Shown: positions 28,919 to 58,459 of the stretch, in pieces
Layout of the letters: each line of letters starts with the position of its first letter
Numbering within the stretch: the first letter of the stretch is position 1
DNA from: Tetraselmis striata
Lineage: Eukaryota > Chlorophyta > Chlorodendrophyceae > Chlorodendrales > Chlorodendraceae
NCBI GenBank assembly: GCA_006384855.1
Contig: VCJN01003216.1
Location: 62,001-126,000 of the forward strand
Direction of reading: 5' to 3'
Length of the DNA stretch: 64,000 nucleotides
The notes under the pieces: model-generated
Databases searched by the model: none
What the model was told of the DNA's origin: nothing
Seen by the model: the letters and a program-made list of their open reading frames with translations, nothing else
Made by a program: the position numbers and the translations under genes

Positions 28919-29773
28919 TCAATCGTGCTCACCTTCGCGGCCACGCCCACGTCCACCGCCACGTCCTCGCCCACGCCCGCGACCGGCAGCTGCAGCCACC
29001 ACTCGAGCAGTAGCGGTTGCTTTCGCGCTGCTGGCAACGGTCGCCTCGAAGACACGGCGCTCGTAGTCCCGCATGAGGTCCCCAAAGATCGCGGAACCCA
29101 GATGCCCCGAAGCAGCCTGAAAATGCTGGGCTCGCAGCACATCCAGAACACCTTGGTCACCGTGCACACGCTTGATCTCATTTAACCTCCGCAGGAAGGC
29201 CAAACGAAACCGAAACGCCTTGTCGATGGCCTCGGCGTGGTTCCGAGCTCTCGCGAGGTAGGGGGTGAAGTCCTGGTTGGTGGCAGGGACGTAGGGCAGT
29301 AGCTCGTCGAGAGCCACGAAAAGCGCGGCCATGTGGGCCCCGAAACACGACATCCACAAATACTCCTCCTGGGCCGGCAGACGCCGGTCATCCTGCTTGA
29401 GGTACTCGTTCGTTAGGTCGGTGCTCAAGGGAAAGAGTCCAGGCACTTGGCTGACCGGTCGAACGGCCTCATAACCAGACTCTGCTCTCTGCAGTAATTC
29501 TGGCACCGCGAGGTAGTCATCCTCGGCACTCACGGATTTTGCTCCGACACGGCCGCTCTGAGCTAGCTCTAGCAAGTCGGGGCGCTCTGCGGCTCCCCCG
29601 CTGCCTGTCGGCTGTCCCGCGATGCGCTGCCCGGAGCGAGAGCCATGTGCCCCTTCTCCATCAACAACACGCTCACGAGCCGTCAATTGAGCTACAGCCG
29701 TAGCCAATGCACGCACATCTGCTTGCAACGACTTTAGCGTCGGCTCAGCGACGGGTTCTTCTCCATCTGACAT
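28919..29773 (-). CDS. Gag-like protein of Kangaroo-like element
   Basis: The likely start is the ATG at 29773 (MSDGEEPVAEPTLKSLQADV); an upstream in-frame ATG at 29806 adds 11 residues. An N-terminal helix (LKSLQADVRALATAVAQL) may be a coiled coil. The middle (EYLWMSCFGAHMAALFVALD, then RARNHAEAIDKAFRFRLAFL) is helical. The C terminus is an RGG-type tail (GRGRGRGGGRGRG) likely to bind nucleic acid. It lies just inside A1 and upstream of the recombinase, where DIRS-group elements keep gag. The frame is intact. No sequence family was recognised beyond this position and composition. Confidence 0.5.
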   Translation of the reverse strand: MSDGEEPVAEPTLKSLQADVRALATAVAQLTARERVVDGEGAHGSRSGQRIAGQPTGSGGAAERPDLLELAQSGRVGAKSVSAEDDYLAVPELLQRAESGYEAVRPVSQVPGLFPLSTDLTNEYLKQDDRRLPAQEEYLWMSCFGAHMAALFVALDELLPYVPATNQDFTPYLARARNHAEAIDKAFRFRLAFLRRLNEIKRVHGDQGVLDVLRAQHFQAASGHLGSAIFGDLMRDYERRVFEATVASSAKATATARVVAAAAGRGRGRGRGGGRGRGREGEHD

Positions 29774-29886
29774 AGTAACGCACGGACGTACGGACGAGAA
29801 TATCACACTCGGATGGCGAGCCGGGTGTGGTCTTGAACAACCTGGGGTGACCTTGCTCGCAACTGGTTACGAGACAGTTTTTACAT

Positions 29887-35576: not shown

Positions 35577-36000
35577 TACACAGTGCGATTCTCATTTGCC
35601 GAGACTTGCGAAGAGCGTGTGACGTGGCACCCGCAAGGCCTAACGAGTAGGGTGGGATGAGGTGATGGGTGCGAGAAGCGCGACAGCAAAAGGGATAAGC
35701 GCAGTGGATTCTCCAGCACCACCTAAGTAGTGTTGGAGTACTCTTGAACTTGAGGTCGGGAGTTGTCGACGGTAAGCTGGCAACAGCCGCCAGCCCCCAC
35801 ATTCTAGAAACTTCGGAAAATCCCATAGAAATTCCGGCGAGTCGTAGTATCAAAATAGCAGCGACAACCGGTAGAACTACTTCACACGTTCAGGAGCTGC
35901 GGCGCGAATTAAATGCCCGCTTCACTTTGTATGTATGGCTTACCTCAGTAAAATATTGAACAATAATTAAACACAGTGCGAGTCTCGTTTTCCGAGACAA
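35577..36000 (-). repeat. Direct repeat at end of second recombinase element
   Basis: ACACAGTGCGA-TCTC-TTT-CCGAGAC occurs at 35577-35606 and again at 35970-36000. The spacing and position just after the recombinase gene suggest the B1/B2 or A2 parts of split direct repeats of a second DIRS-group element. The matching A1 end was not found upstream of 43257, where the foldback repeat begins. Confidence 0.4.
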
Positions 36001-36521
36001 CCGAAGGGCCCGGACCGCGCCCGGAAACGGTAAGTGGACTGTGGATGACGGCGTCGGCCGCGAAAGGCCAGCGGGGTCGAAAAGCAGAAAAAGAAATGGC
36101 CGCCGGCGGGGTCCAATAGGAACGATGTAGGTGTGGACGACGCTGCGGCCGTCCACCAAGCAATCGCCGACCCAACAAATGTTGGGAAGGGAAACGCCAG
36201 CTTCGGAAGCGGCCGATGCACCGCCGCTACGCAGATCGTGCGATGTCCAAACCAAGCCGGGGGGCGGGCGCTCGCCGCGGGCATGGCAGGCGACGGTGAC
36301 CCTTCGGATCACCGTGTCCGAAGTCCAGGTCCGGGGTTGGCCACCGGGCCGCTGCCGGAAGTGCGCATTAGCTACGGATAGCACAGCAGCCCGATAACGA
36401 ACGAGCGCATGTATGAGATTCGCAAGATTCGGGCGGGCTGACCGTAAAATCTGGAGAGGCGGGCCCAAATCGTCCGGACAGTGGGTTCTTGCCTCCCGAC
36501 GCCGATGATCGTATGGGGAGG
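35890..36521 (-). pseudogene. Second tyrosine recombinase, C-terminal half
   Basis: In one frame the minus strand reads from SPYDHRRREARTHCPDDLG through the His/Arg box WTSHDLRSGGASAASEAGVS and WVGD to the Tyr box SVVHTYIVP. These are the C-terminal catalytic boxes of a DIRS-type tyrosine recombinase. The upstream half lies at 42575-43210, beyond the LINE. Removing the LINE and one copy of the 14-bp duplication joins the two halves in frame at SPYD. Confidence 0.7.
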
Positions 36522-36568
36522 TTGAAATTTGTAGCATCCCCCCGACCCGCCCGGCTTCTCGAGGTGGC

Positions 36569-37560
36569 GTGGCCGGTGGGGGTTCAGCACTGTGGGGCGT
36601 CCTCCGGCCCCTCCATGCCCCTCTGCTAGGGTGTCTCCCGTGGGGGTCGCGGTCCCGGCGGGGGCGGCGGTGGTGGTGGGCGCGTGGCGCTGCGATGGCG
36701 CGGGTGCAGTCGTTGACGCCCGGCGGGGGCGTTGACTGGCAGTTCCGGTGTTGCGATGGCAGTTGCGGACGCACCTGCCAGCGGCCCGCCCCCCTGTGCA
36801 CGCACGTGAACCACGGGATGGAGTCCGACGACCCAGCGGTAGCTGCCATGCACCTCGCCTACGCTGCGACTTTCGACCCCTCTGTGTATGTGCGGTGCGC
36901 CCCACCAGCCGGCTGCCCGCGCTCGGGCCACCACGTGTTCCATGGCGCGCGAGCGGCGGCCCGTGCCGCCACCTGCGAGTTCTGCAGCCCCCTCCTCCCA
37001 CGGCTCCGCCCTCCGGTGTGGCTCTCCCGGCGTCGGCAGCTGATGGCGTGCGGGCGCTGCGGGGAGCTGCCGGCGGGCACGTCTCGGAGTGCCCGCCGGC
37101 GGAAGCGCCGGCGGTCCGCGAGGGCGCGGGCGGCTTCTGTAGAGGCTACAGAGGGGGGCGCCGATGCTGCGGCGGATGGGGTGCCGCTGGCGGTGGTACA
37201 CGCTCACCGCCGGGCGGCGAAACTCACCGCCGTGCATGAGCTGCGCCGCGCTCGCCAGGCGCTGGACACCGCCGACCTCGGTATGGTGTCCGACGCCGCT
37301 GCGGCGCTCCCTGACCTTGAAGCCCCCCATCCGCTTCCTGCTCCCACCGACCCGGAGTACTCCCCTCCCGAGGAGCCGCCGGACCTGCGGCGGGCGCCGC
37401 CGTCGTGGGGTGGCAATGCGGATGAGGTTCGGCGGTGGGGGGAGGATTAGAGGCGGGTTTTGCGCCGTGCTCCCCGCCTTTCCGATGGGCATGTGGACAA
37501 GTGGCGTTTGGAGCACGTCATGGACCTAGACGTACCTGCATGGCGCATGTGGGTGAACCG
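36569..37560 (+). pseudogene. LINE ORF, N-terminal zinc-finger region
   Basis: The frame contains Cys/His clusters (CCDGSCGRTCQRPAPLCTHV and CAPPAGCPRSGHHVFHG, then CEFC), as expected for DNA-binding zinc fingers at the N terminus of R2/CRE-type proteins. The frame reaches an in-frame TAG at 37448-37450. It continues in the same frame with RLSDGHVDKWRLEHVMDLDV and AWRMWVNR to 37560, where retroposon A is inserted. The frame resumes unchanged at 39585 (WVNR again, from the target duplication). Confidence 0.55.
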
Positions 37561-46960: not shown

Positions 46961-47916
46961 AGCATCTGTCACATCCGCTTGCGCATGAAGAACGGGACAG
47001 TTAAGCCCTTCCGGGTCGGCTAGGGTTACAGCTAGGGTTCCATACCCGGTTGAGACCACGGCAGGGCACCTGATTGGTTAGGGTTCCATACCCTGGCCAT
47101 AGCCCTGAGCGAGGCGCAAGGAGACATACATATCCGAGATCAAAGACCCGCCCAAGCACACCTCGGCGGGACTTCGAAGGGAACTCAGATAGTACCTTTA
47201 ATCGGGACCTCTAACAGGGACCCCTAAGGTAGACTACCTGCAGAAGACGAAGTACTGTACTGCTGCTGGTACAAGGCGCAAGACTCACTGTAGCCGCGGC
47301 CGAGTAGTAGTATAGGACTTAATGAGTACAATTAGACAAGGGCAGTGCGTAATGCGTATGGCGCGCGGTGCGCGCACGGCGCGCGTGCTATTAGCACTAT
47401 GCGTGACGTGCGGCCGCCTTGCCATGGCCGCGATCGCGTGCTTATAGAGGGCCTCCGCCTTCTGGCGGTCCCTCTTCCCCTTTGTCTTGCCGGTGTGTGC
47501 CTGTGTGTGCTTGTGTTTGCCTATGACAGGCATAGGCAAGAGCCTGTGTACGGGACGGAGACGGTGTAAGAGACGGAGATCGGCTTGAGGAACGAGGGCC
47601 AAAGGTAACCACGGTAGCCTGCGTGCTTGTCGTACGGTCGCGCGCGTGCTGCTCGCTGCATTGTGCGCGCGCGCTGGTGGTGGTGTTGGGTTGTCACCAT
47701 TCGACGCGGTACCGACGTAAAGTACTGTAGGAACGGTTAATAGCCGCGACCAGCACTGCATCAAGTACTGCACGGCGTAACGGTGACCTCTGGTGAGAGG
47801 TTTTATTGCCACTGGCATTCACCCCCCTGAGTACGGGCAAGACCAGCAACGCTGGTCTGAACTAAAGCCCTATAGGCGTCTGAGAGGTGCCTATAGTGAC
47901 TTAGGTTCGCGTTCAG
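46961..47916 (+). repeat. 5' LTR of gypsy element
   Basis: It matches 57510-58459 from AGCATCTGTCA to TAGGTTCGCGTTCAG. It contains GAAGTACTGTACTGCTGCTGG and GC-alternating tracts (GCGCGCGGTGCGCGC). A small indel at the TGTGTGTGCTTG stretch and about 20 substitutions distinguish the two LTRs. A TG...CA core would start at 46967 and end at 47915. Confidence 0.9.
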
Positions 47917-48848
47917 ACAAGGGGGAAGAGCTCTCGTGGGTGAGAGTGAGTGCTAGAGGTGAGGAAAGGTCTAAGGGGTGTTGGAGACAAACCTATATGG
48001 GAACTGCTCGTAAGAGTACATAAGACTCGAAGGGTGAGGGGACAAAACCCACTAGAGGTTGGGCCAGGAAGGCCCTCGGACTAGTGAGGTGACGAGGTGA
48101 GGAGTGATTCGAGTTTCCTTTTGGGTTTGGTGACGAGCGAGAGGCAAAGGGTTTGCCACCTCTGGGGACACTTTGTGTTTGTGCCTGAGCGAGCCGTGAA
48201 CAACGGGGCATTGAGTGGGCGAAGGGCACTAACGCCAAGCTAAGTGTGTTGCTGAGTGGCCCTTTCACCCGGCGCGGCCTCTGAGTGAGAGCCACGGCGT
48301 GCCGATGACGCTCTTTCACCATCCCGCGGGAGGTGAGAGAGCGGCGTGTTCCTTTGGGTACCAATTGGCATGCTCCGGTTCTTGTGGCTTGCTCCGGTTC
48401 TTTTGGCCTGCTCCAGTTCAACGACCTGCTCCTGTTCAACGGTTCAACGACGACAGGTGGTAGGAGGGAGGCAGGGCGTCAGCCCGGGAGTGGGAGGGCG
48501 CCGGCTTCACAGTCGTGTGTCAGTGCCGGAGTGCACTTGGAGGGAGCGGCATCGCCGCCTGAGGGCCCCGGCGAGGGTGACGGCTGGCGGGTGCGTGGCT
48601 CAGCTCGGTGCCAACCTCTTCGTGGCGGTGGTGTGGATCTGAGGTTCACCGGCACTGAGTTATACCGGAGGTTGGAACTGTTCGTGTATCGGCTTGAGAC
48701 AGGTGTGCGCCAACACCGGCGAGGCGACGCGGCGGCAGCCCTCAGATTTCTGAGGCCGCGTGGACGCAGCCCCCACTTCTGAGCTTGAGGGCCCCGGCGA
48801 GGGCGACAGCCAGCGGACGCGCTGGAAAGCGCGGAGGGCGGCTTTGCC
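47917..48848 (+). other. gypsy untranslated leader
   Basis: About 0.9 kb lies between the 5' LTR and the gag start. It opens with ACAAGGGGGAAGAGCTCTCG, where a primer-binding site should lie; I could not match it to a tRNA. No conserved ORF was seen. Confidence 0.5.
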
Positions 48849-50240
48849 ATGGGCGACCTGTGGGCAGCACTGGACGAGCTGGAGGAAGACCAGTTGATCG
48901 AGGAGGTCGTGGAGGGGCTGCTGAACGACGTAGACGCATCCAACCAGGAGGGTGAGGAGTGCGATCACGAGAACACGTACGCATACAGCAGCTGCGAAGC
49001 CGAGGACAACGGAGACGACGAGGACGAGCTCTACTTTTCTCCGCTGCCAACACGCAACCCTAGGCGAGACACTTTGTACGGACACGCGTACTTGGTGGAG
49101 GACGCAATGAGCGACGACGAGATGGAGCCGCGGAGGGGCAAGGGCTCCAGCGGGAAGTTGTGGGCGGGTCACGAGAAGGCGACCTCAGAGCACACGTTTG
49201 AGACGTGGAAGAACTCTACGGACTGTGCCATGGAGAAGGAGCAACAACAGGCATTTGACCGCAACACACCGTTCAACGAGATCCACGAGGTTCACGTGCT
49301 GCGGAGCCGCATTCAGCCGAAGTACTTGGAGTCGCTAGAGACTACACTCATCAGCCGGGGCATCAAGTACGAGGACTCGAGGATCGTACGGAGGCTGGAA
49401 GGCGCAGAACGGCTCGACTACTACCGCCGGTTGTTGGACGGCATGTGGGAGGAGCTCGTCAACATCACCAAGCACATCGAGCTGCATTCGGAGCGGTACA
49501 GCAAGTGCCATCGCTCGCATGGTGAGACTGTGCGCGACTTTCGCAATCTGTTGCTAACGCACACCAGGGTCAAGAACCTGGTCACCGAGGAGACGACACG
49601 CATTGTGGAGATATCGCGCGTCGACGTGGATTTCATCGCGCGGGCCTGGGGCAAGACGCGTTTCAGCCCCCGCATCAACTTCGCACAACAACAACTCGTG
49701 GACTACACGATGGACACCCAGGTGGACAGGACCTGGGAGATGGCTGAGTGGCTCGACAAGCAGGAGCGCGGCAGCATTCACATGCGCGCTCACTCGCGCG
49801 TCCAGAGCGGAGGCGATGGGCGGGGTTTTGACCACGAGGAGCACAACAGCCGCGGTGGCGGTCGCGGCAGCGACAGCCGTGGTCGTGGAGGCAGCCACGG
49901 AGAGGGTGGCAACTACCATCGACGTGGAGGTGGAGGAGGTGATCGTAGAGGCGGGCGCACGGAGAGGAGCGCTTACGCCCGTGGTGGAGATGATGGTGGG
50001 CGAGGCGGCCACGTCAACGAGGCAGGTTGCTATGGTTGTGGGTCGAAAGATCACTACACGAGCGACTGCCCTCTGTGGAGCAAGACGTGCTCCGAATGTG
50101 GCAAGAAGGGTCACATTGCCAAGCGGTGTTGGAAGGCCAACCCTGATCTCCGTCCGGAGACCGCCATGGCAGCAACCAATCCCCGGGAGCACATCAGAGT
50201 GCGCGAGAAGCCCAAGAAGCCGGACGCAAGTCGTGCATGA
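48849..50240 (+). CDS. gypsy Gag with zinc knuckles
   Basis: A 463-residue intact frame starts MGDLWAALDELEEDQLIEEV with an acidic N terminus. The helical capsid-like part includes RIVRRLEGAERLDYYRRLLD and IHMRAHSRVQ. A Gly/Arg/Asp-rich linker leads to two CCHC zinc knuckles of the C-x2-C-x4-H-x4-C type (CYGCGSKDHYTSDC and CSECGKKGHIAKRC). It forms the virus-like particle and binds RNA. The frame closes with TGA at 50238-50240. A third knuckle (CMMCGKDAGHTTEEC) is encoded across the end in the -1 frame, so Gag-Pol is probably joined by a -1 shift just before 50234. Confidence 0.8.
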   Translation: MGDLWAALDELEEDQLIEEVVEGLLNDVDASNQEGEECDHENTYAYSSCEAEDNGDDEDELYFSPLPTRNPRRDTLYGHAYLVEDAMSDDEMEPRRGKGSSGKLWAGHEKATSEHTFETWKNSTDCAMEKEQQQAFDRNTPFNEIHEVHVLRSRIQPKYLESLETTLISRGIKYEDSRIVRRLEGAERLDYYRRLLDGMWEELVNITKHIELHSERYSKCHRSHGETVRDFRNLLLTHTRVKNLVTEETTRIVEISRVDVDFIARAWGKTRFSPRINFAQQQLVDYTMDTQVDRTWEMAEWLDKQERGSIHMRAHSRVQSGGDGRGFDHEEHNSRGGGRGSDSRGRGGSHGEGGNYHRRGGGGGDRRGGRTERSAYARGGDDGGRGGHVNEAGCYGCGSKDHYTSDCPLWSKTCSECGKKGHIAKRCWKANPDLRPETAMAATNPREHIRVREKPKKPDASRA

Positions 50241-51346
50241 TGTGTGGCAAGGATGCGGGCCACACAACTGAGGAGTGCGGGAAGCGGCGCAAGTTCGTTG
50301 CGAACCTGCGGGCGACAGACGGCCACGAACCCAAGCACCCGCAGCTCAACGGCTATGCTCAAGTCGTCGGCGGCGAGGAGGGCATAATGGTGGGGCTGGC
50401 AGCCGCCAGCCAGTTGCGCCCACAGCGTAAGAGCACGGAGGCTCAACTCCATGGCGTCAACACGGTGCGCATGGAGGACGGAGAACGTGAGGCCAGGCAG
50501 CGGAGGCTGCCTCGCGGCTTCACCACCCCATCGGTGGAGATGGCGCAACAAATGCACAGCCGTACAGAGCTGACGGCGAAGCTCACCCGCGCAGCGCAGA
50601 GCGTCACGGTGCCTGTGTCACTGGCCAACGGCGGTGGACAGCCGCGCATGCCGCTGATGGAGATCGCCAAGCGGCTGGTCAAGCACGAGCCCGTGGAGGA
50701 TGGCTGGGAGAAGCATGATGTCATGCGTGCTCTGGAGAGCAAGCGAGTCTCCATCAGCTTGATGGAGGCTTACCAGCTCGAGCGCAGCGGCGGCGGGATG
50801 ATGGAGAGCGTCATGGCAATAGCATGGGGCGGCGGTGCACTGAGTACCGAGCCGATCAGCAGCCACGCTCACTCAGCCAGGACCTCGAGCGGGGAGCGCG
50901 CCTTCGAGGCAGCGCTGATGATGGTGGAGGAGATCGCTGACCAACAAAGCGGCGGCAAGTCTACCGCGGAGGAGAAGACCGCTGGCGGAGAGGCTGAGAC
51001 TGAACGGTCTTTTGCCATTTACCGGCCGGGTTAACTCGCGATACAACGCGAGGAGGAGGAAGATCGCAAGCGTGCAAATGCGCATCGCAATGCCAGCACG
51101 GCGGTTGAGGAGGCATCAGTATGTCGCCGCAGCGGCAAGTGGGAACCCGCCACTGACTATCGACGCAGTGCTACTGAGGCAAACATCAGGGAGCAAGCAC
51201 TACGGCTGCTCAAAGGGTCTGAGACCCGACGCTGCCTGGAGCAGTAGGCGGAAGTCGCCAACAAGGGCATTTTTGCCCTTCAGCCCACAGGGGCTGAGGC
51301 GAAGGAGCAGCCGGAGACGGCTCGGCTTGACACCATCACGTGCGAG
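50237..51346 (+). pseudogene. gypsy Gag-Pol linker region with two nonsense codons
   Basis: This is the -1 frame relative to gag. It begins in the third zinc knuckle and contains a helical region with FTTPSVEMAQQMHSRTELTA and MPLMEIAKRLVKHEP. It meets TAA at 51032-51034 and TAG at 51245-51247, both in frame with coding-like sequence on each side (LAIQREEEEDRKRANAHRNA, and later PTGAEAKEQPETARLDTITC). It then passes without shift into the protease. Confidence 0.55.
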
Positions 51347-51690
51347 TTGTACGCCAACAACACCATGCTGCAGTGCGAGACCATTTCCGACGGCGGCAGC
51401 AGCCACACCCGCATGAACGCGTCAGGGATGGAACCAAGCGCGGCGGAGGCCGTGGTAAAGGGCGCTGGCGTGTGGGTGGACGTCGACATGGTGGTGGTGC
51501 TCGCCAATGGCAAGCGCTCATGCGAGCAGCAACGACGATTGCGGGATGGCGTGGTCTTCACGCTTCGGGACCCCGTCACCTCAATCATGGCAGCTCATCA
51601 CGCACCGCGCGTGTACGAGAATGGAGGCGAGGCACCGGGCTTGCTGCTCGGTGGACCTACCATCACAGCCCTCGGGCTGCGCCCGGACCC
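51330..51690 (+). CDS. gypsy aspartic protease (retropepsin-like)
   Basis: The frame has TISDGGSSHTRMN near its start, aligning with the D-S/T-G-A active-site motif of retropepsins, here in a DGGS variant. About 90 residues later LLLGGPTITALGLRP matches the conserved (I/L)(I/L)LG-D-L flap-side motif. Between them lies VWVDVDMVVVLANGK. It would cleave Gag-Pol. The Gly in place of Ser/Thr at the second active-site position is unusual and may lower activity. Confidence 0.55.
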
Positions 51691-52019
51691 GGCGACCAGA
51701 ATCTGCACTTTCCGCGCACCCAACCGACCAGCCGGCAGAGTGCCGCTGCTCAGCCAGACGGCGTGGGAGCGGCGGGTCCGCGAGCACCAACCTGTGGTGC
51801 GCGTGGAGAGAGCGAGCTACTGCCATGGGGTGGAGCTCGGCGATGATGAGATGGGGGAGGAGAGTGGGGGGGGCAGTGACGTGTCTCACAGCCACGCCGC
51901 CCACGAACCCTCACGGCGTGACATGCAAGAGTCCAAGACCTGCGAGCCGGCAGACCTACCGCCTTTGTGGGAAGTGCAGAGCCTGCAGCGTCACGGGCTG
52001 ACGAGGCTGAGCACCCGCG

Positions 52020-53060
52020 AAGAGGGCATCAGCATGTACGAGCCATGTGGCGGAGGCTACGTTGCCGTGCTGAATGCCATGCTGGCCAACGGTCAGAAGG
52101 TGGCCAGATACCGGCATTCGGACATCGACCCGGCAGCCCGCAAGGCCGCTGGGCAGCGTGTTCAAGGAGCTTAGTAGGAGATATCCGGATCTACTACCAG
52201 CTAGCGCGATCAAGGGGTGGGACTCGTTCCCACAGGACATCACGGCGATCACAGCGGAGGACGTGAGGCGCCTGCCATACATAGACAAAATGGGGTGTGG
52301 ATGGCCCTGCCCAGGCATGAGCAGAGCCAACCGCAACGCGCTGGCATTGCGCGACCGGAGGTCACGTTTGCTCTTTCACGTGGCCGCGTTCATCGAGAAG
52401 CTCGAGGAGAAGCAGCCCACCGGCGTGGGGTGGCTGCTGGAGAACGTGGATACGAGCGGAGACGAGAGACTGTACATCAAGAAGTCTGAGAAATACATCA
52501 CGAAGATCATCGGGAGAGCGCTCGTGATAGATGAGGCGGGCTGTGGATCCAGTCATCACCGAGTGCGACGATTCTGGACGAACATGGGGGACGTGGCGAG
52601 ACTGAAGTTGGCGTGGGAGAGGCGGGCGGACATGCAGCCGCGACTGCTGCGAGAGGTGCTGCCACCGCACCTACGGCCGCATGTCAATCTGCCGACACCA
52701 CCCAACGGAGTTCGCGTCAACAAACCGGGGCAGCCACGCGCGTTGCCAACGATCTTGGCGCGACCGGACTCAGATACCTACTTCGGCGAGGGGGCTGGCA
52801 TGTTGTTCAACATCAACACGGGCGAGTGGGAACGGCCCACTGTCCACTTGAAGGAGGAGCTTTTTGGTTACGAGCCGAACGTCCTTCACGGCATATCGCT
52901 GCCGGACCATGAGCGCCTCATAGGCAATGCCATGGGTCTGCACAGCGTCGCGTGGATCGTCGGGCAGCTCTTCGTGGAGCAGCAACGACTGAGGGACTTG
53001 GAGGAGCTGGAGCGCGCAGCCCGGGCTGCCCAGGCAGCTCAGCGCGCAGAACGAGAGAGA
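52020..53060 (+). pseudogene. DNA cytosine-5 methyltransferase domain within gypsy pol
   Basis: Motif I/II (MYEPCGGGYVAVLNAM, then YRHSDIDPAARKAA) lies in the protease frame. One base change near 52145 moves to the next frame. There, FPQDITAITAEDV is followed by motif IV GCGWPCPGMSRAN (catalytic Cys in PCPG; 52293-52330), motif VI WLLENVD (near 52440), motif VIII HHRVRRFWTN (near 52560) and motif X ERLIGNAMGLHSVAW (near 52915). Order and spacing are those of C5-MTases, which transfer methyl from SAM to cytosine C5. All key residues are present apart from the frameshift. It lies between protease and RT, where gypsy elements normally have nothing. Confidence 0.85.
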
Positions 53061-53118
53061 CGAGAGCAACGCAGGATGCGGAGATCCTGCGGGAGAGCAT
53101 GGCAGCAGCTGTGTCAAC

Positions 53119-54117
53119 ATGCGCTATATATGCTGCTGGCTGCTGCTCATTTGGTTGGGCGGCACGTCAATGCACTTCAGCGAGGCGAGTCGTCTCGGCA
53201 ACACCACGGTGTTAGCCATGTTCGTGGCAGTGATAGTGCGCGCGAGCGCGCGCTACCACCGCGAGGTGACGGCGACAAGCAGGGCGGGGCGCCGAGCTTT
53301 CGGCGCCAACGCCGTGTCGGACGGCGGCGGGACTGCGGAACGGAGTAGCGCTGCTGCGTGGGCCAATCGCGGCTACACGCAGGCAAGCATGAATGATCAC
53401 GTGGAGGATGTTCACAGCCTGAAGGATCCTGAGAAACACTGGCGGTGCGGGCGCGAGTGCGAGGCTTCACAGCAAAGACAGCTCGTGGAGCTCTGCGACA
53501 GCTTTTGGGATGACGTGTGGGTGTGGTCCGTCAGCGACCTACCGGCCGTCAACCACTGGGAGTTCAGGATACCGACGACCAACACGCAGCCCATCAAGCG
53601 ACCCAAGTACCGATTGAGCAAGACTGAGTGGGGCTTCGTGGAGAGCTGGTGCAAGGAGCTGTTGGCGGCTGGGGCGATCCGCGGGAGCCAATCTCCCTAC
53701 AGCATCCCAGTAGTGTGTCCACCGAAGAAGAACGACGACGGCAACTGGACCGGGATCCGGGTGTGTTTGGACGCTCGCCCGTTGAACAGTGTCACTAAGT
53801 CGTGGGCGTATTGTATGCCCAAGACAGACGAGCTACTCAGCAAGGTCGCAGGCGCGCGCATGTACAGCGGGTTTGACGCCAAGTCGGCGTTTCATCAGCT
53901 GCCCATCGCAGAGGAGGACAGACACAAGACTGCCTTTTGGGGCAGCGACCGGCAGTATGAGTGGTGCCGGATGGCGATGGGCTTCAAGAACGCCAGCCAA
54001 GCATGGCAGCGTGTCATGGATGAGGCCCTTGGCGATCTGCCGTTCGTGGCGGTTTACGCCGATGACATCTGTGTCTTTTCAGGCGCAGCCGAGATGAGCG
54101 ACGCTGAGGTGTTTTAG
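53119..54117 (+). pseudogene. gypsy reverse transcriptase (palm/fingers)
   Basis: It contains WEFRIPTTNTQPIKRPKYRL, SPYSIPVVCPPKK, RVCLDARPLNSVT (motif 1-2), MYSGFDAKSAFHQLPIAEED (motif A), QYEWCRMAMGFKNASQAWQR (motif B) and VAVYADDICVFS (motif C, YADD at 54054-54065). The catalytic aspartates are intact. The frame ends at an in-frame TAG (54115-54117), after which homology continues (QHL), and a one-base change leads into the next frame. Upstream, the link to the methyltransferase also needs a frame change near 53.1 kb. Confidence 0.85.
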
Positions 54118-54134
54118 CAGCACCTTCAGAGACG

Positions 54135-56018
54135 GTGTTTCGGAGGCTCGCAAAGGCGGGCATCAGACTGGCGCCCGGCAAGGGGCGCATGGCCGTGAGG
54201 CAGATTGCTTTCTTGGGCCATTGGGTCGACGGCGAAGGCGTATTCCCGCAGCACTCCAAGGTGGAGGCTGTGGTGAAGATGCCGCCGCCGACTGACGTTG
54301 CGGGGCTTCGGCGCTTCCTTGGCATGGTGGGCTACTACGGCAAGTTCATCGAGCAAGTTGCAGTCAAGCGCAAGCCGCTGACCAAGCTCACCAGCAAGGT
54401 GCCGTGGGAGTGGGGATCGAAGCAGCAACGAGCCTTCGAGCAGCTCAAGGCAGACATGGTTTCAACTCCCGTGCTGAGAAATCCGGATTGGAGCCGCCCT
54501 TTCATCCTGCACACCGATTTCAGCGGAGCTGGATTGGGCGCGGTGTTGGCGCAGGAGGACGACGAAGGACAGGAGTACGTGGTGGAGTTTGCGAGCCGCA
54601 TCTGCCAAGGCGCGGAGCCAAACTATGCCAGCTATGAGGGTGAGTGTCTTGCCATGTTGTATGGTATGGACAAGTTCAGATACTATCTGTTTGGCGGGCA
54701 GTTTGTGGTGGTGACGGATCCTCGGCCTTTGGAATGGCTGATGAACACCGCTCAGCTTCGTGGGAAGTTGGCGCGGTGGGCGATGAGGCTCAGCGAGTAC
54801 GACTTCGTGGTTCGCTATCGGAAGGGCGTTCACCACGTCAACGCAGATTGTCTCAGTCGGGGGCCCGTGGAGGGCGACCCAACGGAGCTGGATGGGCGCG
54901 GTGAGTTTTCACCGGAGGGCACCGTGCGACATGCGGCAGCCTTTTGCTGCGCAGCGGCTCAGAGCAGCCGGCAGCCGGAGATGTCAGCGTGGGCACGGCG
55001 CCGCGTGTTGGACACCGCCCATGAGGGCGCGGCAGACGGCGACTTGGTGGCGGTTACCGGCGAGCTGACGGCGGGACCGCGGGGAGGCAATCCGTGGATG
55101 GACGCGGAGGCGATGGCGGAGCTGCAGGCGGGCAACGTCAACATGCCGCAACCTCATGCCCGCTATACATGGAGAAACAACATCTTGTGGTATTTACACA
55201 AGGACGGCACGCACCGCGAGGTACCGCCACCCAGTGAGCGAGACACCGTGATTATGGATGTGCATGTCAAGATGGGCCGTTTGGGGCGGGATCGGCTGCG
55301 CAGTGTTATCGCCGCTTCATATTTCTGGCCGGGGATGGTGGAGGATGTAGCCCGAGTCAAGAAGGCGTGTCCGGACTGCGATCGGCTGCAACATCGACCC
55401 GGCGGCACCAGCGGCCGCCCAAAGGCAGCCTCACCGCTGGACATGCAGCCGCTGCCGCAATTCGGCATGTTCTACCGCTGGCACTTGGACTTGGCGGGGC
55501 CTTTTGAGGCCACCCGCAGTCGCAACGTCAGGGTGTTGGTGATGGCGGAAGCGGCGAGCAAGTGGGTGGAGTTGGTGCCGCTGCGCACCAAGGAGACAGC
55601 CAACATACGACAAGCTTTTAAGGAGAGAGTGCAGGCGCGTTTCGCGGCGCCCGGCGAGGTGTATACCGACGGCGGTACCGAGTTCATCGGCGAGTTCCAC
55701 GAACTTCTCGTGGAGCATGACATCGATCATCCAAAGCCGCTGCCCTATCATCCGCAGCCCAATGGGTTGGCGGAAGGGATGGTGAAAACCGTCAAGGAGG
55801 CACTGATGCGCTATGTGGTTCAGCCCGGCAAGCGCGTCGTGTGGGACACTTTTCTGCCTTCCATCGAGCTGGGCTACCGGTGCAGCAAGCAAGCCAGCAC
55901 CAGGTACAGCCCATACGAGTTGGTGTACGGCAGGGCGCCCGTTTCCCCGCGCAAGCGAGAGCGCTCTTTGAGGAGAGCGCCGTGGACTTCAACAGCCCGG
56001 AGGGCATGTGGGAGCTGA
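54135..56018 (+). CDS. gypsy RT thumb, RNase H and integrase
   Basis: A 627-residue open frame. RT thumb: TVFRRLAKAGIRLAPGKG, FLGHWVDGEGV, then GLRRFLGMVGYYGKFI. RNase H: RPFILHTDFSGAGLGAVLAQ (first Asp), YASYEGECLAMLYGMDKFRY (Glu) and VHHVNADCLSR (last Asp). The integrase has an H2C2 zinc-binding region (VHVKMGRLGRDRL, then CPDCDRLQ) and the catalytic triad D (WHLDLAGPF), D (VYTDGGTEFIGEF) and E (PNGLAEGMVKTVKEAL). These enzymes make and insert the DNA copy. The frame drifts after YELVYGRAPV near 55945, where the real sequence continues one frame over. Confidence 0.85.
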   Translation: MFRRLAKAGIRLAPGKGRMAVRQIAFLGHWVDGEGVFPQHSKVEAVVKMPPPTDVAGLRRFLGMVGYYGKFIEQVAVKRKPLTKLTSKVPWEWGSKQQRAFEQLKADMVSTPVLRNPDWSRPFILHTDFSGAGLGAVLAQEDDEGQEYVVEFASRICQGAEPNYASYEGECLAMLYGMDKFRYYLFGGQFVVVTDPRPLEWLMNTAQLRGKLARWAMRLSEYDFVVRYRKGVHHVNADCLSRGPVEGDPTELDGRGEFSPEGTVRHAAAFCCAAAQSSRQPEMSAWARRRVLDTAHEGAADGDLVAVTGELTAGPRGGNPWMDAEAMAELQAGNVNMPQPHARYTWRNNILWYLHKDGTHREVPPPSERDTVIMDVHVKMGRLGRDRLRSVIAASYFWPGMVEDVARVKKACPDCDRLQHRPGGTSGRPKAASPLDMQPLPQFGMFYRWHLDLAGPFEATRSRNVRVLVMAEAASKWVELVPLRTKETANIRQAFKERVQARFAAPGEVYTDGGTEFIGEFHELLVEHDIDHPKPLPYHPQPNGLAEGMVKTVKEALMRYVVQPGKRVVWDTFLPSIELGYRCSKQASTRYSPYELVYGRAPVSPRKRERSLRRAPWTSTARRACGS

Positions 56019-57370
56019 TGACAGTGCGCGCGGAGCGTTTGGCGCTCATGGTGCCGACGGCGATGCACAACGTGGAGGCGGCGCAGCATCGTGAAGTGAT
56101 GCGCTATCGCAGGAGGCGCGCGGGGTTGGTGGCGCCCGGAGTGCAGCGCTTCAGCCCCGGCGACTTCGTCTACGTGCAACAGCGGCAGCAAGACGCGCTC
56201 TATCCACGAGTGCGACCGGCTATCTACAAGGTTTACGAGGTCAACGACAACGGAGTGGTGGTCATCCAAGGAGCTGACGGCGACACGGCGCGAGTGCGCG
56301 TTGAGGAACTGGCGCGGTGCGCCGTTCCATACGTGGTGTTGCCGGCAGGATTTGAAGACCCAAATATGGCGTGCGAGGAGTGCGACGGGCGCGTCAGCAC
56401 CCAGCGCAACCCGATCATCATCTGCGAAGACTGTGAACGAGGCTGGCACAAGTTGTGCCATCAGCCACCTGTGGCACGTGTGCCGCGGGGGGCATGGCGG
56501 TGTGCGGAGTGCGGCGCTGATGACGCAGCGTTGCCGGCACAGTGGACATCGGTGGCTTTAGCCGCCACAACAATCAGTGACAACGACGACAGCGACGAGG
56601 AGATTCAAGACCCTGCCCCGCCTTTGCAGCCGACAAGAGCGGCGGTGGCAGCAAGACTGAACTGGGGCATGCCTGGCGCCTGGCACCCAGTAACCATGAC
56701 AAGAAGGATGAACAACCTTCAAGCAGCCAATGACTATCTACCGGCGATCAGTAACCAAGTGAGCGAGTACGCTGCGCTAGCCAACGTGATCGGCTGGCGC
56801 GGTCGAGTAATCTTTGATCCGTGGGCGGAACATGGCAGCACCGCTGAGGCCTTGCGGCCGTGCGGCGCGACAGTGATCAACAACGACTTCAATCCGATGT
56901 ACCAAACTGAGATGTGCAAGGACGCGCTGGAGTCCTTTGTGTACCAGTGCGTTCGCAATGTGACGGCGACCGTGGCGACGACAGCCATGACGACGACGAC
57001 GATGTCAACACAGCCGCGGTTAGAGGCCCCTTTTGTAGTGGTGACCTCCCCGTGGTTCCAACTACTTGATCTGGCGCTGCCAATCATGGCGTCATGCGCG
57101 GACAGCCTTTTCGTGCAAGTGCCAATCTTCTACATCGCGCAGGGACCTTCCCCGCGCATGCAGTGGCTACGGCATCTAGGCGACTGTGGGCGGCTCCACA
57201 TTATTGCCGGCGATATGCAGCGTAACCGCACTACGCGCCGATCGACTCTGTGGCTAGCGATCTTCCGCGACAACGAGCTGCGAGAGCGAGAACTGCGAGC
57301 TGAGTGGCGTCACTCCGTGGCGTCAATTCACTTCCACACCGAGGCGTGCGCTGGCGACCAGCGTCACTGA
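55945..57370 (+). CDS. gypsy integrase C terminus, PHD finger, methyltransferase-like domain
   Basis: The first part (ESAVDFNSPEGMWELMTVRA, then RFSPGDFVYVQQRQQD and PAIYKVYEV) is the GPF/Y-like integrase C terminus. A PHD finger follows at about 56368-56515 with the complete C4-H-C3 pattern: C-x2-C, then CEDCERGWHKLC, then CAEC. It should bind histone H3 tails. The last 200 residues contain VIFDPWAEHGSTAEAL, then NNDFNP, and, 45-50 residues later, VVVTSPWFQLLDLAL. These resemble motif I (DP-AG-GST) and motif IV (N/S-PP-Y/F/W) of class I SAM methyltransferases of the amino-methylating type. That assignment is inferred. The stop is TGA at 57368, 140 bp before the 3' LTR. Confidence 0.7.
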
Positions 57371-57419
57371 GCGTCAATTGGCGCCCAGCGGCCGCTCACC
57401 CTTCTGGCAACCAACCGTC

Positions 57420-57441
57420 TGGGGGGGGGGCGGGGGGGGGG
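57420..57441 (+). repeat. G-rich tract, possible polypurine tract
   Basis: Two G runs separated by one C precede GATGGGCC. A polypurine tract is expected immediately upstream of the 3' LTR; this one is about 70 bp away, so its role is uncertain. Confidence 0.35.
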
Positions 57442-57509
57442 ATGGGCCGCCCATTGAGCTGGTGACAGCGCCCCACGCGGGAATGCGAGCATGCGACGGC
57501 AGCTGCCAG

Positions 57510-58459
57510 AGCATCTGTCATATCCGCTTGCGCATGAAGAACGGGACAGTTAAGCCCTTCCGGGTCGGCTAGGGCTACAGCTAGGGTTCCATACCCGGTT
57601 GAGACCACGGCAGGGCACCTGATTGGTTAGGGTTCCATACCCTGGCCATAGCCCTGAGCGAGGCGCAAGGAGACATACATACCCGAGATCAGAGACCCGC
57701 CCAAGCACACCTCGGCGGGACTTCGAAGGGAACTCAGATAGTACCTCTAATCGGGACCTCTAACAGAGACCCCTAAGGTAGACTACCTGCAGAAGACGAA
57801 GTACTGTACTGCTGCTGGTACAAGGCGCAAGACTCACTGTAGCCGCGGCCGAGTAGTAGTATAGGACTTAATGAGTACAATTAGACAAGGGCAGTGCGTA
57901 ATGCGTATGGCGCGCGGTGCGCGCACAGCGCGCGTGCTATTAGCACTTAGCATGACGTGCGGCCGCCTTGCCATGCATGGCCGCGATCGCGGGCCTATAG
58001 AGGGCCTCCGCCTTCTGGCGGTCCCTCTTCCCCTTTGTCTTGCCTGTGTGTGCTTGTGTTTGCCTATGACAGGCATAGGCAAGAGCCTGTGTACGGGACG
58101 GAGACGGTGTAAGAGACGGAGATCGGCTTGAGGAACGAGGGCCAAAGGTAACCACGGTAGCCTGCGTGCTTGTCGTACGGTCGCACGCGTGCTGCTCGCT
58201 GCATCGTGCGCGCGCGCTGGTGGTGGTGCTGGGTTGTCACCATTCGACGCGGTACCGACGTAAAGTACTGCAGGAACGGTTGATAGCCGCGACCAGCACT
58301 GCATAAAGTACTGCACGGCGTAACGGTGACCTCTGGTGAGAGGCTTTATTGCCACTGGCATTCACCCCCCTAAGTACGGGCAAGACCAGCAACGCTGGTC
58401 TGAACTAAAGCCCTATAGGCGTCTGAGAGGTGCCTATAGTGACTTAGGTTCGCGTTCAG
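57510..58459 (+). repeat. 3' LTR of gypsy element
   Basis: Partner of 46961-47916. It differs by about 20 substitutions and small indels (for example GGGCTACAG for GGGTTACAG, and GCCATGCATGG for GCCATGG). Flanking sequence after TTCGCGTTCAG is unrelated to the element interior. Confidence 0.9.

Follow-up and report, generated by a model that had tools for sequence, protein, structure and literature searches.

A DNMT3-like cytosine methyltransferase is carried across the gag-pro and pol frames of a Ty3/gypsy retrotransposon family in the green alga Tetraselmis striata

A 64,000-nucleotide (nt) stretch of the genome of the chlorophyte Tetraselmis striata (assembly GCA_006384855.1, contig VCJN01003216.1, positions 62,001 to 126,000 of the forward strand), referred to here as the window, was found to contain a Ty3/gypsy retrotransposon with two long terminal repeats (LTRs), which spans approximately positions 46963-58459. 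The element encodes a DNMT3-like C5-cytosine methyltransferase (MTase) of predicted activity. This domain is a fixed part of a Ty3/gypsy family, of which the window element is one old, decayed copy. The explanation that we prefer, at a probability of roughly 0.6, is that the MTase is carried in gag-pro-pol, would be completed by a +1 shift, and would methylate the element's own complementary DNA (cDNA) or insertion. To an initial annotation of the window, which had proposed a retrotransposon-borne cytosine MTase, the analysis adds the division of the domain between two frames, a PHD finger, a probable second MTase, the decay of the window copy, and relatives of the MTase in copia and LINE-like elements (LINE, long interspersed nuclear element).

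The C5-MTase motifs that had been placed between the protease region and the reverse transcriptase (RT) of a gypsy element were confirmed, in order, at positions 52019-52985. Motif I, which begins EEGISMYEPCGGGY, was located at 52019-52171 and was followed by GWPCPG, LLENV, HHRVRR and IGNA within 52155-52985. An intact copy of the element elsewhere in the genome (L012) matched the Pfam family PF00145 with an E-value of 1.4e-5 and a score of 25.2 bits, above the curated threshold of 22; the six MTases from other elements that were included in the same scan also matched, at 22.5-45.8 bits. The Pfam check proposed in the annotation was thus borne out for the intact copy and not for the window copy, which gave no PF00145 match at E-values up to 1. 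When the intact copy was searched against the PDB with phmmer, DNMT3A, DNMT3B and DNMT3C chains made up the first 29 of 46 rows (best 7e-4, DNMT3A/B), and a profile of nine sequences matched DNMT3A at 9.5e-14. The MTase of a LINE-like element (L078) gave no PDB match at 1e-3 on its own; a profile that includes it does match. A Foldseek search with an AlphaFold2 model of the Ty3 MTase placed DNMT3 on top (1.3e-7, TM-score of approximately 0.48), and all 50 matches listed were DNMT3 chains or complexes. Two DNA methyltransferase families of PHROGs matched the Ty3 MTase below 1e-6 (best 1.2e-8), and no match was found in NCBIfam.

In pairwise comparisons the Ty3 MTase of the intact copy scored 49-78 bits against nine other retroelement MTases, 37.7 bits against a DNMT3B fragment, 42.0 bits against a protein named DNMT3A, and 37.4, 27.3 and 17.7 bits against three further C5-MTases. 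Since 200 shuffles of the Ty3 MTase reached a maximum of 28.1 bits, two of the five scores against non-retroelement proteins lie within chance. A chance coincidence of motifs was rejected on the basis of this shuffle control and of the profile and fold matches. Two findings weigh against the identification, in addition to the missing window match: the AlphaFold2 model was weak (mean pLDDT 57.9, pTM 0.53), and a genome-wide PF00145 search, which scores best candidates only, returned 123 rows, none of which is by its coordinates a copy of the Ty3 family. The annotation had treated the lack of a significant C5-MTase match as decisive against it, and such matches were obtained with PF00145, the profile, phmmer and Foldseek. 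DNMT3 was closer than DNMT1, DNMT2 or bacterial enzymes in the phmmer and Foldseek searches and in a tree whose outsiders were one DNMT3B fragment and four other proteins.

The genome searched comprised 224,097,584 bases in 2903 contigs. The MTase search returned 139 rows, of which 38 were near-full-length copies with 94-100% identity, including the window copy; each lies on a separate contig, and 35 have no internal stop. Fifteen of the 38 sit in an open frame of 1753-1799 amino acids (aa), and searches with the RT and with the C-terminal domain gave equal frame lengths on those 15 contigs. The distance between MTase and RT was determined using 66 RT rows (E-values up to 2e-55) and 71 MTase rows, with short split pieces and the 25-30% identity rows of other elements set aside. 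A same-strand MTase was found upstream of 59 of the 66 RT matches, at exactly 463 nt in 32 cases, within 800 nt in 54, and at 1.5-7.7 kb in five. The seven RT matches with no upstream MTase were a 98% copy (C2415, minus strand), a 92% copy near a contig start (C2245) and five copies of 68-77%. An assembly chimera, or the one-off insertion of an MTase gene into a single copy, as would be suspected if other copies lacked the segment, was accordingly rejected: the copy number, the separate contigs and the constant spacing to the RT reduce its probability to a practically negligible level.

The proposal that a Ty3/gypsy element of a chlorophyte encodes a C5-MTase was also supported by the protein matches to the element, all nine of which are Tetstr1 gene models (69-95% identity over 9-81% of the query); no member of the Ty3 family was found among them in another species. 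Five protein matches from other sources aligned to the Ty3 query at 21-36%, and two of these (P0010 and P0012) carry copia-type Pfam domains. In viral contigs no relative of the Ty3 MTase was found (17 pattern stretches, none confirmed).

Other arrangements of related sequences were recorded in the genome. Six copies of the 3' part of the Ty3 element lie in tandem, approximately 4.0 kb apart, at C2237:9733-30547, and three tandem copies of the RT part lie approximately 1.87 kb apart at C1805:6593-10940. A stand-alone C5-MTase open reading frame (ORF) is present in several copies (L001-L006, 325 aa; L008, 323 aa; three on C1230, 341 aa); it has a bacterial or viral look and is possibly another mobile or viral insert.

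The MTase is divided between two reading frames. In all 30 copies read, motif I (YEPCGGGY) lies in the gag-pro frame and the remaining MTase in the +1 pol frame, so the earlier placement of the MTase inside pol holds for all of the domain except motif I. The gag-pro frame of the 30 copies ends 135-165 nt past motif I, and ahead of RYPDLL the pol frame runs without a stop for 102-165 nt. The two ORFs overlap by 36 nt that are identical in 24 of the 30 copies, with one change in the window copy. In four diverged copies of 66-79% protein identity (L080-L083) the offset is retained, and their 25-nt core carries one, zero, two and three changes, respectively. From this arrangement we infer that the split is the element's gag-pro/pol frameshift, located within the MTase. 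Against this it must be set that the two-frame MTase was in one open frame in none of the 30 copies and that the four diverged copies are themselves decayed: motifs I and II are separated by a stop in L080, L081 and L082, and motif I is missing from L083.

The frames might instead be joined by splicing: an intron of 151 nt with GT-AG ends, whose length is 1 modulo 3, would restore the frame, and in two deposited gene models (P0001 and P0009) ...QRVQGAQ is followed by ANRNALG..., just as such splicing would have it. Removal of this stretch would excise motif IV with the catalytic Cys and would yield an inactive protein. The excised stretch, however, aligns with copia and LINE-like MTases, which lie in a single open frame, and it is free of stops in 30 copies; this conservation between element classes, together with the open frame, speaks for its translation. 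The variants within it (five synonymous, five nonsynonymous) are too few to judge. Gene prediction programs insert introns of this kind where two frames have to be connected, and an LTR element can copy its genomic RNA only if that RNA stays unspliced. Splicing is therefore regarded as quite improbable.

Signs of purifying selection on the predicted MTase were found when copies were compared. The ratio of nonsynonymous to synonymous polymorphism (pN/pS, mean pairwise) was 0.19 for the MTase (codon bootstrap interval 0.11-0.34; 28 copies). At the same loci, the linker between MTase and RT, which served as an internal control, gave 0.64 (0.31-1.48; 25 copies), gag-pro 0.29 (0.18-0.47; 21 copies), and the next 480 nt of pol 0.33 (0.10-1.17; 24 copies); for the RT, at its own 30 loci, the ratio was 0.18 (0.07-0.43). 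Two of the 30 MTase loci (L027 and L038), in which the anchor motif was unmatched, were excluded from the MTase count. The residues PC, ENV, HRVRR and GNA were kept in all 28 aligned copies and the full motif IV string in 27, and 27 of the 28 MTase copies were free of stops. These values have to be read with caution: the loci were the top 30 protein matches, a choice that biases pN downwards, the singleton variants comprised 30 synonymous and 31 nonsynonymous changes, and the intervals of the MTase and the linker just touch.

The same data bear on whether the MTase is made as an enzyme at all. The captured domain might usually not be produced, with selection acting on the pol-frame segment alone as a structural or DNA/RNA-binding part, in the manner of a DNMT3L-like dead helper. 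The location of motif I in a different frame in 30 of 30 copies would fit such a role, as would its departure from what we take to be the usual FxGxG form. A role confined to binding would need none of the PC, ENV and HRVRR residues that all 28 copies retain, however, and the motif I part was itself stop-free in 28 copies with a pN/pS of 0.24, albeit within a wide interval (0.09-1.72). A dead helper is considered unlikely, and an MTase completed by frameshift remains the preferred explanation.

Related MTases were found in other classes of retroelement in the same genome. The Ty3 MTase query also matched at 25-30% in frames of up to 2483 aa, and related MTases occur at no fewer than about 100 places (134 rows, including split matches), most of which were identified by search match alone. 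One of these (L073) is a Ty1/copia element by its Pfam domains, with a zinc knuckle, MTase, Pol beta-barrel, GAG-pre-integrase, integrase and RVT_2 in one 2295-aa frame. By translation only, L071 and L072 have the same layout, and L074-L077 carry a copia-like protease stretch 3' of the MTase. The Ty1/copia DNMT3-like MTase sits between gag and the protease region, and L072 holds two different MTases within 9 kb. L078 (C2687) has an RNase H 3' of its MTase within one 3505-aa frame, and three further copies were found (C2172, C653 and C596). Its nearest relative in the tree is a LINE-like protein (P0021) with RT, PCIF1_WW, C5-MTase, RNase H and a sub-threshold endonuclease match, and L078 thus appears to be a LINE-like element. 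The PCIF1_WW domain of P0021 is presumably of the N6-adenine MTase type. A PHD-like cysteine cluster was also observed in P0021, 5' of PCIF1_WW and the C5-MTase.

The tree was built from 15 sequences, and the element MTases grouped next to the DNMT3B fragment and the DNMT3A-named protein. The ten element MTases formed one group (support 96/94) that was intact in 94% of bootstrap trees, which suggests that the Ty3, Ty1/copia and LINE-like MTases of this one genome belong to a single clade. The Ty3 sequence (Ty3_L012) forms the first and long branch (1.53) of that clade, and its uncertain placement weakens this grouping. An insert of approximately 20 residues between motifs II and IV (..YP..LP..A......P.DI..IT) was present in all ten element MTases and absent from the five others, a finding that argues against the alternative that each element class captured its MTase independently, from one unsampled algal or viral DNMT3 gene or from several similar ones. 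Separate captures would nevertheless agree with the differing position of the domain in each class and with the composition of the tree, whose five outsiders include no cellular green-algal DNMT3 and no KnitGypsy or SymbioDIRS enzyme; they are a serious alternative to exchange, although one that we put below even odds.

Two further domains were identified 3' of the integrase. In the intact copy a PHD finger (5.2e-7) is followed by a 254-aa stretch that contains DPWAGHGSTAEAL and TSPWF and gave no significant match in Pfam or NCBIfam. Amino-type DNA MTases are marked by a motif I that binds S-adenosylmethionine (SAM) and a motif IV of a form like [DNS]PP[YFW]. A relative from another ORF (L079), 34% identical to the C-terminal domain and carrying DPCAGTGG and TSPWF, matched the DNA methyltransferase family phrog_799 of PHROGs at 1.6e-6 and no family of Pfam or NCBIfam. 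A three-sequence profile of the domain gave a weak PDB match to a putative modification methylase (0.22). Foldseek returned mostly SAM-dependent methyltransferases (best 5.6e-4, TM-score 0.36) for an AlphaFold2 model whose poor quality (mean pLDDT 45.6) counts against the assignment. The C-terminal domain is probably a second, amino-type MTase. Relatives of it (36-55%) also occur in short separate ORFs of approximately 217-370 aa at dozens of places, L079 among them. A further sequence (P0007), tried as an aid to the C-terminal alignment, appears to be a chimeric model and was of no help there.

The features of the window copy are listed in the table. A gag with zinc knuckles lies 5' of the MTase, and the order of pol by Pfam is RT, RNase H, integrase (H2C2, rve) and PHD finger. 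The LTR pair was recognised as three ungapped blocks of 92-98% identity spaced approximately 10.5 kb apart. The two LTRs differ by 20 mismatches in 944 aligned columns (Kimura two-parameter distance 0.022 (0.0216)), and a target-site duplication had no clear form in the flanks, the LTR ends being approximate. The pol of the window copy is broken across several frames in the ORF list, and its motif IV reads IDKMGCGWPC compared to IDIVGCGWPC in L012. In 21 of the 30 copies the gag-pro frame had no stop up to the locus edge (454-455 aa 5' of motif I). Because the Pfam scan of the window copy matched no protease family between gag and RT, the position of the protease was taken from SDGGSSH at approximately 51386, which we assume to be a protease-like motif.

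Table. Features of the Ty3/gypsy element in the window (window coordinates).
Feature	Position	Strand	Basis
5' LTR	46963..47917	+	Repeat blocks D1-D3 and alignment; ends approximate
gag ORF, 483 aa, two zinc knuckles	48789..50240	+	ORF list; PF00098 6.1e-5, two stretches
gag-pro continuation, first fragment (decayed copy)	50147..51034	+	ORF list
gag-pro ORF, second fragment, ending in MTase motif I	51248..52174	+	ORF list and translation
MTase N-terminal part with motif I (YEPCGGGY), gag-pro frame	52019..52171	+	Translation; same layout in 30/30 copies
+1 frame-change region, overlap of two ORFs	52147..52182	+	36-nt overlap
C5-cytosine MTase, DNMT3-like, portion after motif II (catalytic PC, ENV, HRVRR, GNA)	52155..52985	+	Motifs, Pfam, PDB, Foldseek
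Reverse transcriptase RVT_1	53725..54084	+	PF00078 1.8e-16
RNase H	54486..54800	+	PF17917 3.6e-32
Integrase: H2C2 zinc finger and rve core	55224..55730	+	PF17921 2.3e-11, PF00665 7.1e-9
PHD finger	56372..56512	+	PF00628 4.6e-7; 5.2e-7 in intact copy
C-terminal domain, probable amino-type MTase	56660..57367	+	DPWAEHG here; DPWAGHG and TSPWF in intact copy
3' LTR	57506..58459	+	Same repeat blocks and alignment; ends approximate

A run of G with a single C inside lies at 57421-57441, approximately 65 nt 5' of the 3' LTR, and is perhaps a polypurine tract. Elsewhere in the window, an ORF at 35890-36849 (minus strand) contains HDLRSGGASAASEAGV and presumably resembles the terminal part of a tyrosine recombinase. 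A second ORF, at 28919-29806 (minus strand), resembles what we take to be a DIRS gag; neither ORF gave a Pfam match at 0.1.

Under the preferred explanation, a +1 ribosomal shift inside the MTase would make the enzyme whole, so that the complete MTase would be present only as part of Gag-Pol, along with RT and integrase. Either inside the particle or at the target site, it would then methylate the element's cDNA or new insertion. Methylated copies might resemble host DNA and persist stably, with silencing as the price. The PHD finger 3' of the integrase could read histone tails and so influence the choice of site, and the C-terminal domain could add a second, amino-type methyl mark. A broader proposal is that a retroelement-adapted DNMT3 lineage has spread among three unrelated classes of element in green algae, Ty3/gypsy, Ty1/copia and LINE. 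In the Ty3 element it would have become gated by the frameshift, with the SAM-binding half in Gag-Pro and the catalytic half in Pol, so that activity would be confined to Gag-Pol. This product would also hold RT, integrase, a histone reader and the amino-type second MTase, and the particle would write two different methyl marks on cDNA or target. This proposal is speculative and, taken as a whole, rather unlikely.

Cytosine methylation is a classic host weapon against retrotransposons. An element whose MTase is maintained by selection and occurs in many copies, and in at least two element classes of a single genome, reverses that picture; such elements may use DNA methylation as a tool, beyond its part in host defence. 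If the MTase module was exchanged between Ty3, copia and LINE elements, it would have to be useful to retrotransposition as such and not to the life cycle of one element. Tetraselmis can be cultured and has a sequenced genome, so that methylation of young copies, polyprotein expression and the frame change are directly measurable, which makes it a tractable system.

The precedent in dinoflagellates and charophytes on which the annotation drew is real: retrotransposons that carry DNMTs are described by de Mendoza et al. 2018 (PMC5890265) from dinoflagellates and from a charophyte. The benefits proposed there are self-recognition as host DNA, protection of cDNA and restraint of the element's own spread. 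In the open-access papers searched no report was found of this host, the frame split, the second MTase or the sharing among three classes. None of these papers linked Tetraselmis to both an LTR retrotransposon and a DNA methyltransferase, or a chlorophyte to both a retrotransposon and a DNA methyltransferase domain. A 2019 paper (PMC6338049) reports methylase-bearing Ty3/Gypsy and DIRS elements in several groups, including green algae, with Tetraselmis unnamed in the text available. A 2025 paper (PMC12344493) mentions copia and DIRS in a single sentence on streptophytes and dinoflagellates, and its main text names neither Tetraselmis nor Gypsy or Ty3. Because these three papers describe methylase-bearing retroelements, the kind is already known, and a gypsy element with a DNMT3 in Pol is an instance of it.

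The SymbioDIRS-Dnmt3 and SymbioLINE-Dnmt elements of Symbiodinium (PMC5890265) resemble the Tetraselmis elements in being high-copy retroelements with DNMTs and in belonging to more than one class per genome. In Symbiodinium, however, the enzymes of DIRS elements belong to DNMT3 and those of LINEs to an orphan Symbiodinium lineage, whereas the Ty3, copia and LINE-like MTases of Tetraselmis fall in one clade. SymbioDIRS enzymes were reported to methylate CG in yeast, a point in favour of the preferred explanation. The copia DNMT3 elements (PMC12344493) share with L073 a DNMT3-type MTase in copia. DIRS elements with Dam-like adenine MTases (PMC5890265, PMC6338049) likewise hold an amino-type MTase in a retroelement polyprotein, whereas the probable amino-type MTase of Tetraselmis lies in a Ty3 element, alongside a C5-MTase.

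The closest parallel in kind is KnitGypsy-Dnmt3 of Klebsormidium nitens (PMC5890265), an LTR gypsy element with a DNMT3-related MTase in its Pol polyprotein, conserved key residues and purifying selection (Ka/Ks < 0.2). Its lack of activity in yeast, which the same paper calls inconclusive, is a point against an active enzyme in elements of this type. Consistent with KnitGypsy-Dnmt3, the Tetraselmis MTase lies in the Pol ORF across copies, motif I excepted, and shows a pN/pS of 0.19 that is subject to ascertainment bias. KnitGypsy-Dnmt3 differs in its charophyte host and in the DIRS-like repeat structure given in its legend, compared to the ordinary LTR pair of the Tetraselmis element. Compared by description only, the Tetraselmis element is further set apart by an MTase split over two frames and by a PHD finger and a probable second MTase 3' of it.
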